Positions 12,040-33,357 of a stretch of DNA of 36,253 bases are shown piece after piece. The DNA comes from Alphaproteobacteria bacterium (GTDB lineage Bacteria; Pseudomonadota; Alphaproteobacteria; Micavibrionales; Micavibrionaceae): contig JAESRE010000024.1 of NCBI GenBank assembly GCA_016764775.1, forward strand, positions 1-36,253, in the 5' to 3' direction. Under the pieces are notes generated by a model. That model was not told the origin of the DNA. It saw nothing but the letters and a program-made list of their open reading frames with translations, and did no database searches. The stretch's first letter is position 1, and every line of letters starts with the position of its first letter. Made by a program: the position numbers and the translations under genes.

Positions 12040-12675
12040 ATGACTTGTATGGCCCACAAACGTTCCCAAAATAGTGTTAACGACGGCGACAAGAGCGCCG
12101 TAAAGAGCACGATTGACTATAGCGGTGATGATTTCAACGCAATGATCTGCGCTATAGCCGAAAACGAGGATAAAGAGGCGTTTATCGCCCTTTTCGAGCA
12201 TTTTGCGCCGCGTATTAAGTCATTTCTGATGAAAGGCGGAGCAAATCCGGAACTGGCGGACGAATTGGCACAGGAAACAATGTTAACGATTTGGAACAAG
12301 GCAGAGAGGTACAATCCAAAGCAGGCAGCAGCCAGCACGTGGATTTTTACGATTGCCAGAAACAAACGGATAGATTCAATCCGCAAAACAAAACGGTACG
12401 ATCCCGATCCGTCCGATCCGATATTGCTGGCCGATGACGGCCCCAGCCCACGTCAACACGCGCTACACAAAGAAGAAATGGATGTTTTGGCCAAGGCCCT
12501 TGAGACCCTGCCCGAAGAGCAGGCGGAGCTGGTCAAAAAATCATTCTTTGAAGATAAATCCCACGCAGTTATTGCGGAGGAAACGGGCATTCCGTTGGGC
12601 ACAGTTAAATCAAGAATCCGCCTCGCGCTCGAGCGCCTGAGAGGCGACAGTAAAGTACAGGATATTTGGCAATGA
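12040..12675 (+). CDS. rpoE: ECF RNA polymerase sigma factor, RpoE/ECF11-like
   Basis: Sigma-70 family, ECF type, 211 residues. Region 2 spans about 45-110 (AFIALFEHFAPRIKSFL; DELAQETMLTIWNKAERY; ASTWIFTIARNKRIDSIRK) and region 4 about 150-203 (LETLPEEQAELV; HAVIAEETGIPLGTVKSRI). This resembles the RpoE sigma factor of Rhodobacter, which answers singlet oxygen and is held inactive by ChrR, and the next gene is a ChrR-type anti-sigma factor with a 4-base ATGA overlap. The ATG at 12040 has AGGA about 10 bases upstream; the ATG at 12049 is an alternative. The N-terminal 30 residues are poorly conserved. Confidence 0.93.
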   Translation: MTCMAHKRSQNSVNDGDKSAVKSTIDYSGDDFNAMICAIAENEDKEAFIALFEHFAPRIKSFLMKGGANPELADELAQETMLTIWNKAERYNPKQAAASTWIFTIARNKRIDSIRKTKRYDPDPSDPILLADDGPSPRQHALHKEEMDVLAKALETLPEEQAELVKKSFFEDKSHAVIAEETGIPLGTVKSRIRLALERLRGDSKVQDIWQ

Positions 12676-13343
12676 CGACTGAAAAAACGGAATTGTTATT
12701 GAGCGGATACGACGCACTGCTTTTCAGCTATGCCGCAGGCAATCTGGATGAAGCACAAAGCCTTGCCGTCGCCACGCACCTCACCTTCTCTGAAAAAGCA
12801 CGCTCCATCGTTCGCCAATGCGAAGACCTCGGCGGCGCGCTAATCGAAAAAGAATGCGAACCCGTATCGATGTGTGATCAAGCGTTGCACAACGTACTAA
12901 GCCGCATAGAAAAAAGTCCGCATACCGAAGCCTGTGCCGAAAAATGTGCTGAAAAACATCAGCTCGGATTCGACATCCCCAAACCTTTGGAAGAAACAAT
13001 TGCGGGACATTCCGTGAAATGGACAACGCTTTTCCCCGGCATGAAAGCATACGACCTGCCATTAAACTGCAAACAAAGTGTTGCGCGTTTTATGAAAGCC
13101 GACCCCGGCAATGTCAGCCCTCACCACCACCATGGCGGCACGGAAATTACACTCGTTCTGGACGGGGCGTTTTCTGATGAAATGGGGCAATACCGTCGTG
13201 GCGACCTGATCGTCGCGGACGAAGAATGTGACCACACGCCAAAAGCGTGCCCGGAACGCGGATGTGTTTGCCTCGTCGTCACGTCGGGGCCGATCAAACT
13301 CACAGGCATCGCAAGCCTGCTCAATCCTTTCCTGAAACCTTAA
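12672..13343 (+). CDS. chrR: ChrR-family anti-sigma factor with altered zinc site
   Basis: A 223-residue protein with the two-domain ChrR plan. The N-terminal helical anti-sigma part (about 1-80) is recognised by 'DALLFSYAAGNLDEAQSLAVATHL', quoted here only by its ends. The C-terminal cupin-like domain (about 115-223) keeps the metal residues: His152, His154, Glu158 and His188, and the CVC pair 198/200. In ChrR the anti-sigma domain binds zinc through two His and a CxxC. Here only His36 remains: the CxxC positions are Ser40 and Ala43, and the N-terminal His position is Ser11 (alignment to Rhodobacter ChrR from memory). The linker has an unusual Cys88-x3-Cys92-x3-His96. I chose the ATG at 12672, which overlaps the sigma factor stop. 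Confidence 0.9.
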   Translation: MTTEKTELLLSGYDALLFSYAAGNLDEAQSLAVATHLTFSEKARSIVRQCEDLGGALIEKECEPVSMCDQALHNVLSRIEKSPHTEACAEKCAEKHQLGFDIPKPLEETIAGHSVKWTTLFPGMKAYDLPLNCKQSVARFMKADPGNVSPHHHHGGTEITLVLDGAFSDEMGQYRRGDLIVADEECDHTPKACPERGCVCLVVTSGPIKLTGIASLLNPFLKP

Positions 13344-13876: not shown

Positions 13877-15118
13877 TTAGTTATTCTGCAAAACGGTATC
13901 CATTCTGTCCAGCGCTTCCAGCAACCTGCGCTCGGAAACGGCAAAACACATACGGACATAGCCCTTGGCGGTATCACCGAACGCACAACCCGGCGAAAGC
14001 AGTACGCCTGCCTCGTCAATAAAGCGTTTGGTCATCAACTTGCAGTCATCCTGCCCGTGCACCTTGAAGAAACCATAGAATGTCGCATGCGGATAAGACA
14101 TATCGACATTGCCCAATGATTTGAAACGGTCAACCAGCAAATCACGGTTCGAACGCCATAAATCAACCTGACTCTTCAGGAATGGTTCGCCTTCTTCCAG
14201 CGCGGCAATCGCACCATATTGGGTAAAGGTCGGCGGGCACAAATTGTTATAAAGCGCCACATCGCGAATTTTATCCTCGGCGATCTTGGGACCGACTATC
14301 CAGCCCAATCGCCAGCCTGTCATCGACCATGTTTTTGAAAAACTGTTCACGACCAGCAGTAAATCATCATCCTGCGCGACATCCAGAAAACTGTCCGCAC
14401 GCATGTGCTCATGATCACTTTCGTAAACAATACGGCCATAAACCTCATCGGCCAGCACCCAGATATTCCGCTCACGCGCAAAATCGAGGATCGCTTTCAT
14501 TTCTTCGTGATTTGCACTCCAGCCTGTCGGGTTGGACGGCGTAACCACCAGAATAACTTTTGTTTTCGGCGTAACGGCACCGAACAATTTATCCAGATCA
14601 AGACTCCATCCCTGCTCTTTATCAAAGTCGAGGGAGACCTGTACGTTCTCTGCCTGCGTCAATTCAATCGCCCCGATCAGGTTTTTCCAAATCGGTGTAA
14701 TCGCGACAACTTCGTCACCCTTATCCAGCAAGGATGCAAGCGACAGGTGCATGGCTGTTGACCCCGAAGACGTCACGAAAATACGTTTTTCGGGAATATC
14801 GAGGCCATAGATATTCTGGTAATAATTGGACAATGTTTCGCGCAGCGGCCATTGGCCGAGTGTCGGACCGTAAGTCGTATGGCCTTCCCGCATGGCATCA
14901 TAAGCTGCACGGGCAATAAAATCAGGTGTGGGAGAATCACCCTCGCCTTGGGCCAAAGTGATCATATCTTTTTTACCTTCGGCATAGTTCATCATTTCCA
15001 CGCCGGGGTTAGAGGTCAGTGCATGCAAAACCGGCCTGAATTTCGGGCCTTTTCTGATCTCATCTACGGTTTCTTGGCCGCGGAGCTCCTCTGTATTTGT
15101 CTGTTTGACAGTCATCAT
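13877..15118 (-). CDS. PLP-dependent class I aminotransferase
   Basis: Fold-type I aminotransferase of 413 residues, related to aspartate/aromatic/alanine transaminases. Visible features are TPSNPTG (Asn196), DEVYGR (Asp224, Tyr227) and the PLP-binding Lys262 in SFSKTWSMTGWRLG; a conserved Arg in YVRMCFA near 396 should bind the substrate carboxylate. Substrate cannot be assigned from sequence. The ATG at 15118 has AGGA about 7 bases upstream; a second ATG follows directly. The 5' region carries a possible alanine-rich leader peptide and hairpins, which would fit an enzyme making or using alanine (inference). The TrmH-type gene follows without a gap. Confidence 0.94.
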   Translation of the reverse strand: MMTVKQTNTEELRGQETVDEIRKGPKFRPVLHALTSNPGVEMMNYAEGKKDMITLAQGEGDSPTPDFIARAAYDAMREGHTTYGPTLGQWPLRETLSNYYQNIYGLDIPEKRIFVTSSGSTAMHLSLASLLDKGDEVVAITPIWKNLIGAIELTQAENVQVSLDFDKEQGWSLDLDKLFGAVTPKTKVILVVTPSNPTGWSANHEEMKAILDFARERNIWVLADEVYGRIVYESDHEHMRADSFLDVAQDDDLLLVVNSFSKTWSMTGWRLGWIVGPKIAEDKIRDVALYNNLCPPTFTQYGAIAALEEGEPFLKSQVDLWRSNRDLLVDRFKSLGNVDMSYPHATFYGFFKVHGQDDCKLMTKRFIDEAGVLLSPGCAFGDTAKGYVRMCFAVSERRLLEALDRMDTVLQNN

Positions 15119-15140
15119 GTGTATTCCTGGTTATTGTCTA

Positions 15141-15161
15141 CCGCACATACGTCTAGTGCGG
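15141..15161 (-). promoter_or_regulatory. Hairpin before the aminotransferase ribosome-binding site
   Basis: On the minus strand CCGCAC-(9)-GTGCGG forms a perfect 6-bp stem about 20 bases before the ATG. A second CCGCAC at 15227-15232 could compete for the same GTGCGG arm, giving two mutually exclusive structures. Confidence 0.45.
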
Positions 15162-15228
15162 AGGATTGTTTCGTTTTAGTTTTTTGGAAAATCGGGCGTG
15201 CGCTACTGCACTATGGGCTTATATGCGT

Positions 15229-15243
15229 GCGGGACTAGCCCGC
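15229..15243 (-). promoter_or_regulatory. Hairpin containing the leader-peptide stop codon
   Basis: GCGGG-CTAGT-CCCGC forms a perfect 5-bp stem whose loop holds the TAG stop of the alanine-rich leader reading frame. A ribosome stalled on the last alanine codons would block it. Confidence 0.4.
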
Positions 15244-15306
15244 CGCTGCTCTCGCTGCGGCCGCTGCTGCTGAAGTGCTCAAAACTGTGCGGCTCAAGAT
15301 GTTCAT
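15235..15306 (-). CDS. Possible alanine-rich leader peptide
   Basis: A 23-codon reading frame (ATG at 15306, TAG at 15237-15235) encodes MNILSRTVLSTS, then six consecutive Ala, Arg (AGA), three Ala and Gly. The architecture resembles amino-acid biosynthesis leader peptides, where a run of one codon senses charged tRNA. A -10/-35 pair with the spacing seen at four other leaderless starts in this window places transcription at the ATG. The aminotransferase gene begins 116 bases downstream on the same strand. No canonical terminator with a long U-tract is evident. It could instead be a chance GC-rich repeat. Confidence 0.45.
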   Translation of the reverse strand: MNILSRTVLSTSAAAAAARAAAG

Positions 15307-15312
15307 ATACCT

Positions 15313-15342
15313 ATTAAAAGCATTATGTATGAAAAATGGCAA
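15313..15342 (-). promoter_or_regulatory. Putative leaderless promoter of the leader peptide/aminotransferase transcript
   Basis: On the minus strand TTGCCA (15342-15337), an 18-base spacer, then TTTAAT (15318-15313), ending 6 bases before the leader ATG. The -35 starts exactly 36 bases before the ATG. It lies just after the aacS stop codon. Confidence 0.45.
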
Positions 15343-15349
15343 ACTTTTT

Positions 15350-17407
15350 TTACGCAGCCTCAACAAAACCGTATGCGGGATTCTCTTTCAGCTTCTTGCC
15401 AATCCCTTTATATATCTCGGCTTTCAGCTCTCCGCTGTCCGCCTTGCCATAGGTTTCGGGCGCTTTCACATCCTCGCCCTTCAACAGTTTCGTTGTCGGC
15501 TTTTCGGCTTTCTTTCCGTTTGGTGTCTTCAACACGTACGGCACGGCAATCACCTCATGCGGGCAGGATAAACGCCCGACGGAATCCGAAATCACCGTCT
15601 TGATGGCTTTTTTCAAATCGTCATCCAATGCACGACCGTCCTTCAAAACAACGAACAACGCCGTATGGTCACCGCTTTGTGCATCTTTAAACGATGCCGC
15701 CAGCGAGTCCTCGATTACACCATCGAAATCTTCATGAAGAAGGGCATCATACAGCTGCTGTGTGCCGATACGTACACCCCCTTGGTTAAGCGTAGTGTCC
15801 GATCGCCCTTCAATCACCAATTGGCCGAGCGGCATTTTCTTGACCGCATCACCGTGCCGCCATACGGGTGGATCGCAATCGAAATATTCGAAATACTCGG
15901 CGCGGAAACGCTCTTTGCCGGGATCGTTCCAGAATTTAATCGGGCGGGATGCAAACGGTTTTTTCACGACCAGCTCCCCTGTCTCGCCTTCTTTTTGGGG
16001 CTTACCGTCATCGGTCCAGACATCGACATCCATACCCAGAACGGGGCCTTTTAACTGTCCCGCAATCGTGGGCGAAAACGCATTTCCCATCGCATAGCAG
16101 CCGACGAAATCCGTCCCGCCGCACACACCTTCAATGCTCAGATTGTCTTTGATATGTGCGTTCACATACAAGTAACCGGCTTCTGATAAAACCGAACCCG
16201 TATACATGATCGCGCGCAAGTCCGACAAATCAAATCCTTCGCCCTTAACGCCCGCACGCATCCACAAATCCTGAATGATCGCCGCCGCTGTCCCCAAATG
16301 CGTACACTTATAGTGAGTCGTAAATTGTAGCTGCGCATCCATGCTCGGGTAAGCAGGGTTCCCGTCATACAACAAAATCGTCGCGTCATTCGCGAGACCA
16401 CTGGCCAGCCAATTAAACATCATCCAGCTGGTGGTGGAGTGGAAAAACACGCGATCACCCGCACGTACATCACCCTGAAGCTGATGCTCAACGGCATGTT
16501 TCAACAACGTGCCACCGACACCATGCACGAAACATTTCGGCTTACCCGTGCTGCCCGATGAAAACAAAATCGCCAGCGGTTGATTGAATTCACGGCGGAT
16601 AAAGGCAATCTCTCGCGCCTCTATATCGGCCATCAAGGCCGTTGAAAGCTTGGCCTTTTTACCAAGGCTGCTAATGTCGGGCGTATCTTCAAGATTGGGC
16701 ACAACCACAGCATGTTCGAAGCTCGGCACCGCATCCAGAAGCTCTTTGATCAAATCAATACGCGGCTCCGGTTTACCGGGCTGGTCGGGCGCTTTCATAT
16801 GCATGTAGCCATCCGCCGCAATCAAAACTTTCGGCTCTATCTGGGCAAAGCGTGCAGCTGTGGCCTGCGCGCCCATTTCCGTACCGACCGAAGAAAAAAT
16901 CGCCCCGCGATTGGCCACCGCCATCATCAGGATATAAGCCTCGGGACCGTGCGGAAGATATGTCGCAACGCGGTCACCGTCTCCAACATCGAGCTTTTCC
17001 AACAACTGCGACCAGCGGCTGACCTCGTTATACAAGTCCTGCCAACTTAAGATACGGTCCTCATCCCGCCCTGCTGTTCGGGCAATAATCGCGGGGTCAT
17101 CGGGATGTGACTTCACACGCTTCAACATATTTTCGGCAAAACTGATTTTGGTATCGGGGAAAAATTCGGCATTCAGAATATCGTCTATATTCTCGATTCC
17201 CTTTTGTCCCTGTTCATAGATCAGCCCCGAAAAATTCAGCACTTCGCTGTAAAACTGCTCCAGATTCTCCACCGACCAGCTGTGCATCTTAGCATAGGCG
17301 TCGGGACCCAATTCGCCGAATTCTATGCCCGTTTCCTCACGGATGTAGTTTAAAAACGCGGCCAGCCGCGATTCCTGCATGTCGTTTAGTGATGGTTTTT
17401 GAAGCAC
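15350..17407 (-). CDS. aacS: Acetoacetyl-CoA synthetase
   Basis: ANL-superfamily ligase of 685 residues that activates acetoacetate to acetoacetyl-CoA, used to recover ketone bodies or PHB breakdown products. Family evidence: the N-terminal 'FGELGPDAYAKMHSWSVENL' type region, the AMP-binding P-loop 'ILFSSGSTGKPKCFVHG' near residue 285, 'TSWMMFNWLASGLA', 'CGGTDFVGCYAMGN' and 'RSDTTLNQGGVRIGTQQLY', then the C-terminal 'TPNGKKAEKPTTKLLKG' with the catalytic Lys region. The length is slightly above the usual ~650. The start appears to be GTG at 17407; an ATG at 17380 (MQESRLAAF) is an alternative. It is divergent from the DsbD-like gene, with 122 bases between. Confidence 0.93.
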   Translation of the reverse strand: MLQKPSLNDMQESRLAAFLNYIREETGIEFGELGPDAYAKMHSWSVENLEQFYSEVLNFSGLIYEQGQKGIENIDDILNAEFFPDTKISFAENMLKRVKSHPDDPAIIARTAGRDEDRILSWQDLYNEVSRWSQLLEKLDVGDGDRVATYLPHGPEAYILMMAVANRGAIFSSVGTEMGAQATAARFAQIEPKVLIAADGYMHMKAPDQPGKPEPRIDLIKELLDAVPSFEHAVVVPNLEDTPDISSLGKKAKLSTALMADIEAREIAFIRREFNQPLAILFSSGSTGKPKCFVHGVGGTLLKHAVEHQLQGDVRAGDRVFFHSTTSWMMFNWLASGLANDATILLYDGNPAYPSMDAQLQFTTHYKCTHLGTAAAIIQDLWMRAGVKGEGFDLSDLRAIMYTGSVLSEAGYLYVNAHIKDNLSIEGVCGGTDFVGCYAMGNAFSPTIAGQLKGPVLGMDVDVWTDDGKPQKEGETGELVVKKPFASRPIKFWNDPGKERFRAEYFEYFDCDPPVWRHGDAVKKMPLGQLVIEGRSDTTLNQGGVRIGTQQLYDALLHEDFDGVIEDSLAASFKDAQSGDHTALFVVLKDGRALDDDLKKAIKTVISDSVGRLSCPHEVIAVPYVLKTPNGKKAEKPTTKLLKGEDVKAPETYGKADSGELKAEIYKGIGKKLKENPAYGFVEAA

Positions 17408-30285: not shown

Positions 30286-33200
30286 TTATTCGTCTAATGA
30301 GACAAGACTGGCGTTTCCGCCGGCTGCCGTCGTATCAATGCTGATGACCCGTTCACTTGCAAAGCGTTGCAGGTAGTTGGGGCCGCCTGCTTTCGGACCT
30401 GTACCCGAAAGTCCGCGACCGCCGAACGGTTGTGAGCCTACGATTGCACCTGTCATACCGCGATTAACATAAACATTACCGACAGGCAAGGCTAGTGATA
30501 GGCGGCTCTGTGTGCTCTCAAGACGGCTGTGCACGCCGAAGGTCAGCCCGTATTCTGTGGCTTTTAAATCGTCCAGCAAATCATCCAGCTTATTCTTATC
30601 GAACCGTATGACATGCAGAACGGGACCGAAGACTTCCTTTTTCAGATCCGAAATGCTTTGAATTTCATAGGCACACGGGCCGAAATAATGCCCTTCCCGC
30701 ACAAGCTCGATATCCAGCGGAACCTCGTATATCAATTCGGCAAAACCGCCCAGAGCCTCGCGGTGACGCAGCAGCGCCGATTTTGCATCCTCGTCGATAA
30801 CAGGGCCGAGATCGGACGATAAATCCATCGGGTCACCGACATTCAATTCCTTCATCGCCCCTTGCAACATGTTGATCACCTGCTGGGCGATATCGGCCTG
30901 AACACACAGAATACGCAGCGCCGAGCATCTCTGCCCCGCTGAACCGAAGGCGCTGTGAATGACGTCATCAATAACCTGCTCGGGCAAAGCGGAGCTATCG
31001 ACAATCATCGCGTTTTGCCCGCCTGTCTCCGCAATCAGCGGCACAATCGGCCCTTCTTTTTTGGCCAGCGTCATATTGATTTCGCGCGCGACATCCGTTG
31101 AGCCTGTAAAAGCCACACCGGCAACATCGCGATGCGCAACCAGCTGCGCACCAATGCGCCCGTCCCCCGTGATCAGGTTTAACGCTTCGGGCAAAACACC
31201 CGCATCATGTAAAAGATCCACCATCCATGCGCCGATCAACGGTGTTTGTTCGGCGGGCTTGGCCAACACGGCATTACCGGCCATTAATGCTGCGGCAATT
31301 TGTCCTGTAAAAATCGCGAGCGGAAAATTCCACGGACTGATACACACGAACACCCCGCGCCCCTGCATCAGGAAGTGGTTCGACTCGCCTGTAGGTCCCG
31401 GCAACGCACGCCCTTCGGGCGCAAATAAAACCTCGCCTTGCTGCGCATAATACCGCAGGAAATCGACAGCTTCGCGCACTTCCGCCAAAGCATCGGGAAT
31501 GCTCTTACCCGCTTCGCGCACGAGCAAAGCCATACATTCCGCATGCCGTTCCTCCAGCAATTCGGACGCCTTCAACAACGCCTCCGAACGCTGAACAGGA
31601 TGCGTATTCGACCATTTTTTATACCCGTCATTCGCAACTTCAAAAGCGCGGTCCACATGACGCAGATCGAGTGTATAAACATGACCGACCACGTCATTAA
31701 AATCAGCAGGGTTCTTGATATCTTCGCCTGCACCCTGACGAACCCCTTCCCCTCCGATCATGGAGGACGCATAATACATGCGAGGCGCATCGCGCATTTT
31801 TTCATAAAGCTCTTCCACCTCTTCAGGTGCATGCAGGTCCATCCCGCGCGAGTTGATACGACCCTGCGGTGGTTCATCGACAAACAGGTCTTTCGGCAAG
31901 CTGATTTTCGGATGTTTGAAACTCTTATACGATTTTGATTTATCCACAGGACAAGCCACAAGCTCTTCAACCGACACATCATGGTCCAGTATGCGGTTCA
32001 CAAAGGAGCTATTGGCACCATTCTCGAGAAGTCGGCGAACCAGATAGGGCAATAAATCCTTGTGCGGTCCGACGGGCGCATAGATGCTCGCGCCGTGCCC
32101 TTGTTCCAGCATTTGGTCGAACAATGCCTGCCCCATGCCGAAAAGTTTCTGGAACTCAAACGCACCTTTTTTGTCCTCGCCCATTTCCATGACCGCGGCA
32201 ACGCTATGCGCATTATGCGTCCCGAACATGGGGTAAAGAATGTCCGTTTCCTTAAGCAGCCGTGCCGCGCATGATAGATAAGCAATATCCGTATGTGCCT
32301 TGCGTGTGTATACGGGGAAACTCTCCAGCCCTTCAACCTGTGCGTTTTTGATCTCGCTGTCCCAATACGCCCCTTTGATCAAACGGACCTGCAAACGACG
32401 TTCATGGCTTTCGGCCAGTTCCACAACATGGTCGATCACATGCGGCGCGGATTTCATATACGCCTGAATCGCAAGGCCGAACCCTTCCCAGTCACCCAAT
32501 CCTTTATCCTGCAAAACCGCTTCAAATATCTGCAAGGATGTATTCAGCCGTTCGCTTTCTTCCGCATCGACCGTCAGGGCCATGTTATAGCCCGCCGCCT
32601 TGCGCGCCAGCGCGATTAAGCGTTCAGACATTTGGGGTACACATCGTGATTCTTGTGCGTACTCGTAACGCGGATGTAACGCCGAAAGCTTCACCGAAAT
32701 ACCGGGACGTTTTTCGGCACGCGGATCTGCCCGTTCGCCGATATATTCAATTGCCTTGGCATATCCTTCGAAATAATCTTCCGCATCAATTGCCGTTCGA
32801 GCGCCTTCGCCCAGAATGTCATACGACATACGGTAACCGCTTTTCTTGAACTTCTCCGCATTTTGATAGGCGGCCTCGATATCGTGCCCCAGTACAAATT
32901 GCTTACCCAGAATCTGCATCGCGTGCACCATCGCCTCGCGTACAATCGGCTCACCGACGCGGCGCATAACACTGTTCAGGGTTTTGGAGGTCATAAACAA
33001 ACCGACACCGGCGGCCTTCACCATCCAGTCATCGGAATTGCCGATATTCTTTAACCAGTCCGAGGCCGCAACCTTATCGTTGATCAGCGCTTGAGCAGTT
33101 TTTTTGTCAGGAATACGCAAAAGCGCCTCGGCCAGCGTCATCAACGCCAACCCTTCCTCGCTATTCAACGAGTAATCACGCATAAAGGTCTCGAGCTGCC

Positions 33201-33357
33201 CCGGCGATCTTTTCTGCGCACGTACTTCTTCGACCAAGGCCTTTGCCCTGTCATACACGGCGGATGATAAATCATCGTTCCACGAAAGCTCCTTAAGCAG
33301 AGCTTTAACGGCCTGCTCTTCGGTTTGTGTGAAATACGACGAAAAAGATCGCGACAT
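30286..33357 (-). CDS. putA: Bifunctional proline dehydrogenase / glutamate semialdehyde dehydrogenase
   Basis: A 1023-residue PutA that oxidises proline to glutamate in two steps using FAD and NAD+. The N-terminal helical arm leads to the FAD-dependent PRODH barrel, with 'RLIKGAYWDSEI' near 325 and 'PVYTRKAHTDIAYLSCA' after it. The aldehyde dehydrogenase half has 'CISPWNFPLAIF', the catalytic Glu777 (ETGGQNAM) and Cys811 (GQRCSALRIL), and 'PFGGRGLSGTGPKAGGP' near the end. There is no N-terminal ribbon-helix-helix DNA-binding domain, so this is a short type A PutA that cannot repress its own gene. The ATG at 33357 has GAAGG 5 bases upstream, lying inside a small palindrome. It is divergent from xseA. 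Confidence 0.97.
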   Translation of the reverse strand: MSRSFSSYFTQTEEQAVKALLKELSWNDDLSSAVYDRAKALVEEVRAQKRSPGQLETFMRDYSLNSEEGLALMTLAEALLRIPDKKTAQALINDKVAASDWLKNIGNSDDWMVKAAGVGLFMTSKTLNSVMRRVGEPIVREAMVHAMQILGKQFVLGHDIEAAYQNAEKFKKSGYRMSYDILGEGARTAIDAEDYFEGYAKAIEYIGERADPRAEKRPGISVKLSALHPRYEYAQESRCVPQMSERLIALARKAAGYNMALTVDAEESERLNTSLQIFEAVLQDKGLGDWEGFGLAIQAYMKSAPHVIDHVVELAESHERRLQVRLIKGAYWDSEIKNAQVEGLESFPVYTRKAHTDIAYLSCAARLLKETDILYPMFGTHNAHSVAAVMEMGEDKKGAFEFQKLFGMGQALFDQMLEQGHGASIYAPVGPHKDLLPYLVRRLLENGANSSFVNRILDHDVSVEELVACPVDKSKSYKSFKHPKISLPKDLFVDEPPQGRINSRGMDLHAPEEVEELYEKMRDAPRMYYASSMIGGEGVRQGAGEDIKNPADFNDVVGHVYTLDLRHVDRAFEVANDGYKKWSNTHPVQRSEALLKASELLEERHAECMALLVREAGKSIPDALAEVREAVDFLRYYAQQGEVLFAPEGRALPGPTGESNHFLMQGRGVFVCISPWNFPLAIFTGQIAAALMAGNAVLAKPAEQTPLIGAWMVDLLHDAGVLPEALNLITGDGRIGAQLVAHRDVAGVAFTGSTDVAREINMTLAKKEGPIVPLIAETGGQNAMIVDSSALPEQVIDDVIHSAFGSAGQRCSALRILCVQADIAQQVINMLQGAMKELNVGDPMDLSSDLGPVIDEDAKSALLRHREALGGFAELIYEVPLDIELVREGHYFGPCAYEIQSISDLKKEVFGPVLHVIRFDKNKLDDLLDDLKATEYGLTFGVHSRLESTQSRLSLALPVGNVYVNRGMTGAIVGSQPFGGRGLSGTGPKAGGPNYLQRFASERVISIDTTAAGGNASLVSLDE

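Follow-up and report, generated by a model that had tools for sequence, protein, structure and literature searches.

Alanine-run leader ORFs and a two-hairpin RNA element upstream of a PRK06108 aminotransferase gene in the Micavibrionaceae: a probable attenuator sensing charged tRNA-Ala

We analysed a stretch of 36,253 nt of DNA (the window; contig JAESRE010000024.1 of assembly GCA_016764775.1) from a genome of 2.38 Mb belonging to the family Micavibrionaceae. A region between an acetoacetate-CoA ligase-like gene and an aminotransferase gene holds the following features, listed with the kind of evidence in brackets.

Stop at 15350, minus strand: end of the acetoacetate-CoA ligase-like gene, the upstream neighbour of the leader region
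15313..15342, minus strand: candidate promoter, with a probably leaderless transcript (-35 box TTGCCA at 15342-15337, -10 box TTTAAT at 15318-15313)
At or adjoining 15306, minus strand: predicted transcript start
15235..15306, minus strand: leader ORF of 23 codons with an Ala run at its 3′ end (translation and upstream regions of orthologues)
15229..15243, minus strand: hairpin A, GCGGG-CTAGT-CCCGC, with the last Ala codons as 5′ arm and the stop codon in the loop (compensatory changes)
15198..15215, minus strand: hairpin B, CATA and then GTGC-AGTAGC-GCAC (RNAalifold and arm pairing across loci)
15162..15197, minus strand: spacer, G-poor in most relatives, possibly a Rho loading region
15141..15161, minus strand: hairpin C, CCGCAC-n9-GTGCGG (minimum-energy fold)
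13877..15118, minus strand: PLP-dependent class I/II aminotransferase of the NCBIfam PRK06108 subfamily (NF004770, PF00155)

Elsewhere in the window, an ECF-type sigma factor gene adjoins a gene for a ChrR-like cupin protein (12040-13343), the two probably making a sigma/anti-sigma pair, and 30286-33357 encodes a PutA-like fusion of proline dehydrogenase and aldehyde dehydrogenase with a DNA-binding-type domain.

The minus-strand frame 15306-15235 reads MNILSRTVLSTSAAAAAARAAAG followed by a stop codon, and its final stretch, AAAAAARAAAG, has nine Ala among eleven residues; translation thus confirmed the 23-codon Ala-rich frame of the original prediction. The -35 box TTGCCA begins at 15342, exactly 36 bases 5′ of the leader ATG, as had been claimed. 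A consensus promoter scan of 14900-15600 listed no promoter; the window promoter was passed over because the scan demands A at the second position of the -10 box, which TTTAAT does not have. Both hairpins described originally were recovered, the first (15229-15243) with the stop codon in its loop and the second (15141-15161) in the minimum-energy fold, while the conserved hairpin B (15215-15198) had been missed. The CCGCAC motifs named as pairing partners are present as well, in three copies on the transcript (at 15292, 15232 and 15161) and not the two that were counted. The fold energy of the region is unremarkable (z −1.23, with 22 of 200 shuffles folding equally well), so the case for more than chance rests on comparison.

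The protein encoded downstream scored 436.2 bits against NF004770 (cut-off 422) and matched PF00155, which places it in the PRK06108 aminotransferase subfamily. Its own genome has seven PF00155 matches. Partial sequences of five of the six other proteins were scanned: one aspartate transaminase-like and one BioF-like protein fell below their cut-offs, a HisC-like protein fell just below, a 5-aminolevulinate synthase exceeded its cut-off, and one protein had no family at E ≤ 1e-70. Across the class, 85 of 289 genomes have a PRK06108 match over the cut-off.

Aminotransferase orthologues (E ≤ 1e-90) were found in 75 of the 104 genomes of the family, which includes Micavibrio aeruginosavorus, and the upstream DNA of all 75 was inspected. 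An Ala-run ORF was scored upstream of 52 of them, in 20 of the 27 genera carrying the gene; the orthologous upstream regions mostly carry the Ala-rich frame, in cis to the aminotransferase, as the original prediction required. These 52 leaders are ATG ORFs with at least four Ala in 10 codons, minus three that satisfied this rule and were dropped by hand (L038 and L048, which resemble the end of the upstream ligase, and L054, which was not leader-like by eye), and they include five weak members with four or five Ala in 10 (L013, L022, L037, L041 and L055). For comparison with controls we used a fixed rule (ATG, 8-60 codons, at least six Ala in 10 codons), which selected 47 of 75 sense upstream regions versus 6 of 75 antisense ones, 0.15% of 7500 shuffles and 4 of 710 control windows. 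Against the earlier reservation that the Ala run may be chance, these counts are evidence that it is more than that. Judged by comparison of genomes, the Ala-run leader is a real observation, and a stronger one than the sequence of the window alone could make it. Beyond the family, 30 of the 94 listed class-level PRK06108 matches (three of them in the family) were read as loci, and none of these 30 has hairpin B or more than six Ala in 10 codons; L126 has six, apparently within the terminal part of a protein encoded upstream.

The 52 leaders are 17-44 residues long. Ala makes up 584 of their 1613 codons (36%), versus 9.2% in the parts of the aminotransferase genes that were read, and is concentrated toward the 3′ end (a median of eight in the last 15 residues and one in the first 10). 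The codon run adjoins the stop codon, a feature tested as one of poly-Cys-type leaders. Each of the four GCN codons occurs (196 GCA, 190 GCG, 122 GCC and 76 GCT), with GCA over-used (196/584 versus 209/1130). At codons with Ala in either sequence, 12 close pairs of leaders differ 20, 27 and 54 times at the first, second and third positions, respectively; Ala is kept through synonymous changes, and here too the proposed check came out in favour of the leader. Such a pattern is what would be expected for codons read for their tRNA and not for a functional peptide. Cys is raised too, at 3.7% of leader codons versus 1.4% in the enzymes, and is present in the last 15 residues of 29 of the 52 leaders; this enrichment is not accounted for by plain alanine sensing. 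By eye, several UGY codons immediately precede GCGG, where they could lengthen hairpin A.

Loci of two genera stand out among the 23 of 75 orthologues scored as having no Ala leader: all nine in genus g45 and all four in the genus Micavibrio (L018, L061, L068 and L070). The Micavibrio aeruginosavorus genome has been reported, in the available part of PMC3189940, to be without nearly all of the alanine pathway, and strain ARL-13 to need external alanine. Genome G078, which is probably that of ARL-13, has the orthologue and no leader; the leader is missing from all four Micavibrio-genus genomes that carry the orthologue, although dependence on external alanine is reported for ARL-13. At four loci (L035, L036, L038 and L065) an upstream coding sequence, ligase-like by eye, reaches or nearly reaches the gene. 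Two g45 genomes (L044 and L046) do have a correctly spaced ORF of leaderless type, in which Cys replaces most Ala; these ORFs end in MACFVCCARAQG and SFVCFPVCCACEHI and lie ∼150-170 nt 5′ of the aminotransferase match. Six loci of genus g3 (L074, L078, L079, L080, L081 and L082) have no hairpin B and instead a C-rich tract 3′ of hairpin A, and share a conserved ATAATCAGGGT near the gene start.

The promoter spacing seen in the window recurs in its relatives. A -35-like box (TTG-type, score of at least 4) lies 35-36 nt 5′ of the leader ATG in 40 of 49 loci, a count favoured by the choice of start codon with the box in view; the three remaining loci have no scored box. A further internal Met is present in 24 of the 52 leaders. 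Two properties that played no part in the start choice are that the −1 base is a pyrimidine in 47 of 52 loci and that AGGA, GGAG or GAGG precedes the leader ATG in 0 of 52. With the -35 box usually 35-36 bases before the ATG, the leader transcript is probably leaderless.

Hairpin A starts within the last Ala codons and, where found, has the stop codon in its loop or shortly after; in L020 and L063 its arms are GCCCGC/GCGGGC, the reversed arrangement. RNAalifold alone, run on 32 aligned loci, predicted hairpin B and not hairpin A, which we drew by hand on the consensus of this 32-sequence alignment (L041 being excluded from alignment A2). For the two helices together, 93.4% of cells in the 32 sequences are paired, with 15 double changes versus 5.0 in shuffled alignments; a slide control with the partner shifted by +2 still gave 10 double changes versus 15, and two of the five counts are weak (25 of 500 shuffles for the number of pairs showing a double change, 167 of 500 for additional pair types). 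A refitted alignment (A3) of 44 matches gave 94.0% paired cells and 19 double changes versus 7.3, A3 being fitted to the model and containing, among its 44 rows, weak matches as well as an opposite-strand match in L039. By these compensatory changes a hairpin overlapping the regulatory codons, the feature tested as typical of trp and his attenuators, is present, and the hairpin of the original prediction is borne out in relatives. Hairpin B (CATA and a 4-bp stem) occurs in 33 of 52 loci and is absent from 19. Its stem is perfect in 32 of the 33, versus 147 of 636 exchanges of arms between differing loci and 5.4% of shuffles, and its loop varies in length, which speaks for an RNA structure and not a DNA operator. 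Overall, the comparison supports hairpin B and, less strongly, hairpin A as conserved structures.

A loose sequence pattern for hairpin B, with matches in 102 of 104 genomes, was too unspecific and was replaced by a covariance model, R2. At E ≤ 1e-3 the model has matches in 35 of the 104 family genomes, every one before this aminotransferase gene, 32 of them having built the model and three (G105, G082 and G096) being independent. Four further held-out loci before the gene (G087, G091, G089 and G088) matched at E of 0.008 to 0.041, and 13 other matches at 0.003-0.05, probably chance ones, are located elsewhere in the family genomes; when 142 genomes of the order were searched, the top match from beyond the family had an E of 0.0024. 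The window had no match to Rfam covariance models at gathering. Among 20 loci searched at E ≤ 5, Rfam gave four matches, all below gathering, of which the one in L060 (344-435; 16.6 bits of 100) overlaps the start of the leader element (modelled at 417-478).

Comparison across loci establishes the in-frame Ala codons, the promoter spacing and the place before the gene as conserved properties of these sequences. Taken together, they make it probable that a ribosome-mediated attenuator sensing charged tRNA-Ala precedes the aminotransferase gene. Transcription would begin at the leader ATG, with the resulting leaderless ORF translated co-transcriptionally. With alanyl-tRNA scarce, the ribosome would slow, and presumably stall, in the Ala run; with alanyl-tRNA plentiful, it would get to the stop codon. 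The end of the Ala run makes up the 5′ arm of hairpin A, and the position of the ribosome would then allow or prevent formation of this hairpin; the state of the hairpin would in turn control the transcription or translation that reaches the aminotransferase. Alanine shortage would most likely raise the enzyme. For the leader-associated enzyme a role as an alanine transaminase is possible, and alanine is a plausible controlled product. Among the findings that count against the attenuator reading, alanine dehydrogenase is over cut-off in six of the seven genomes of the window's genus, and nearly a third of the orthologues are without the Ala leader; the raised Cys, the leaders that have no hairpin B, the slide control and the results on the output step given below weigh on the same side.

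As to the output step, the original prediction contained a switch in which GTGCGG pairs alternatively with copies of CCGCAC. Complementarity of the hairpin A 3′ arm to downstream sequence is indeed strong in the window and in its nearest relative, G006 (z of −2.7 and −3.3). As a general mechanism this switch was rejected, being conserved in few loci: over 32 loci the aligned 3′ arm had a mean z of −0.31 (se 0.20), with six below −1.5 (L001, L002, L005, L009, L019 and L064), and over the 30 loci left when L001 and L002 are set aside the mean was −0.13 (se 0.16), with four below −1.5. Stems chosen by script in 52 loci, which in several (e.g. L003, L005, L007, L042, L078 and L079) are not hairpin A, gave a mean z of 0.08 and five below −1.5. 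A mutually exclusive antiterminator pairing is thus not general. The original prediction noted the lack of a long U-tract terminator; terminator-like sites occur in only 7 of 52 loci, and there is none on the minus strand of this stretch of the window. Between hairpin B or the Ala run and the spacer or start region, 10 comparisons over 33 loci gave mean z of −0.58 to 0.02, the weak excess being with the spacer (−0.58, se 0.25, for the hairpin B 5′ arm and −0.44, se 0.15, for the final stretch of the Ala run); between the Ala run and hairpin B, z was positive (0.86 and 0.58).

Since intrinsic terminators are few and a G-poor stretch lies before the gene, Rho-dependent termination is our first guess for the output step, held with low confidence. 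In 45 of 52 loci the 45 nt that follow the hairpin region hold more C than G; this is so for 16 of 52 upstream of the promoter, for 29 of 52 immediately upstream of the gene and for only 25 of 52 in a fixed window 40-100 nt past the stop codon. This bias would suit Rho and is no proof of it. A fuller description, to which we give slightly less than even weight, is a dedicated alanine-tRNA sensor consisting of leaderless poly-Ala leaders and the two-hairpin RNA element, with no intrinsic terminator, in which hairpin B would be a factor site or part of Rho control and the regulatory codons would be able to drift, as in the two Cys-rich g45 genomes.

Alternatively, the output may be translational, a stalled ribosome unmasking the start site of the aminotransferase, as proposed for mycobacterial Cys-codon leaders. 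The anatomy here is similar to that of mycobacterial Cys-rich uORFs as far as the accessible parts of the sources describe them (probably leaderless, a codon run near the stop, few terminators), and the gap from leader stop to gene start is short, with a median of 98 nt for starts picked by script. Against this, neither the Ala run nor what follows it showed excess complementarity with the start region (mean z of 0.29, 0.02 and 0.37 over 49 loci; the other three of the 52, in which the gap is shorter than 75 nt, were excluded). Sequestration of the start site by these sequences was rejected on that ground, and we consider a translational output unlikely.

The sign of the control could also be the reverse of the one we propose, if the enzyme consumes alanine and its synthesis is confined to times of ample alanyl-tRNA. 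With a ribosome positioned over the first Ala codons of the window's leader, hairpin A would stay free to form, and the aligned genus g3 loci have T-rich or C-rich sequence after that hairpin, both of which would fit. Leaders with such codon runs are, however, described as guarding biosynthesis in the part of PMC1183508 available, and the reversed sign seems to us rather improbable.

It is very doubtful that function resides in the hairpins and that the Ala codons are a by-product of a GC-rich stem. The last Ala codons do make up one arm of hairpin A, and the three genus g6 loci show no variation in them, not even of the synonymous kind; yet the Ala run exceeds the stem and shares its frame with an ATG that lies at promoter spacing, and elsewhere its variation falls chiefly at third positions, with every GCN codon in use. 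Least credible of all is a small trans-acting protein whose Ala-rich end might be, for instance, a degradation tag: action in trans is described for leader peptides (peTrpL, in the portion of PMC7298713 available), but leader residues 2-12 are mostly unrelated (median gapless identity 9%) and all 35 strong model matches precede one gene.

We return to the attenuator sensing charged tRNA-Ala, which we prefer. Alanine is abundant in proteins and lies a single step from pyruvate. A poly-Ala leader conserved in the predator Micavibrio's family would be a natural sensor for this amino acid, would allow terminator-free attenuation to be tested, and would hint at the substrate of the widespread PRK06108 aminotransferases. 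According to the original prediction, no alanine-run leader is known to control a transaminase; likewise, our searches of the open-licence literature, as far as the texts were accessible, found no natural leader peptide dedicated to alanine. A study by Poulton (2024) is reportedly concerned, by its title, with the whiB7 uORF and alanine starvation, and poly-Cys leader ORFs are said to be leaderless in the title of a study by Canestrari (2020).

Several known systems share parts of this arrangement, and the comparisons that follow hold for the parts of each source that were available. In trp and his attenuators (PMC1183508) several codons of one amino acid are likewise present and the first hairpin overlaps the regulatory codons, whereas here the antiterminator is not general and terminators are rare; the words alanine and Ala are absent from the main text of PMC1183508. 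The rhizobial trpL (PMC7298713) is, as our leaders probably are too, an alphaproteobacterial transcript starting at the leader ATG before an amino acid metabolism gene, but it is a Trp leader with known transcription attenuation. The uORFC-8-2 motif before cysS in Rhodobacterales (PMC8632094), an alphaproteobacterial uORF with tandem codons and two stems, differs in its Cys codons, in the tRNA synthetase gene that follows and in a U run at its 3′ end. An engineered trpL (PMC5039519), in which Ala codons replaced two Trp codons, shares the Ala codons in an attenuator leader; it is an artificial, tryptophan-independent antibiotic reporter and not a natural alanine sensor. The mycobacterial whiB7 uORF (PMC13236596) is linked to alanine starvation, its stalling leading to expression of the alanine biosynthesis gene aspC, but it acts in trans through a transcription factor. 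The nearest natural systems, on the sources seen, are the leaderless poly-cysteine leaders of mycobacteria and related cys leaders (PMC1262725, PMC4633059). Those, too, are short ORFs with a run of one amino acid adjoining the stop codon and have no conserved terminator, and Rho is weakly suggested for the actinobacterial case; they differ in that the codons are Cys and not Ala, the genes controlled are mostly those of cysteine and sulphur metabolism, the phylum is another one, and a two-hairpin element accompanies the leaders described here.
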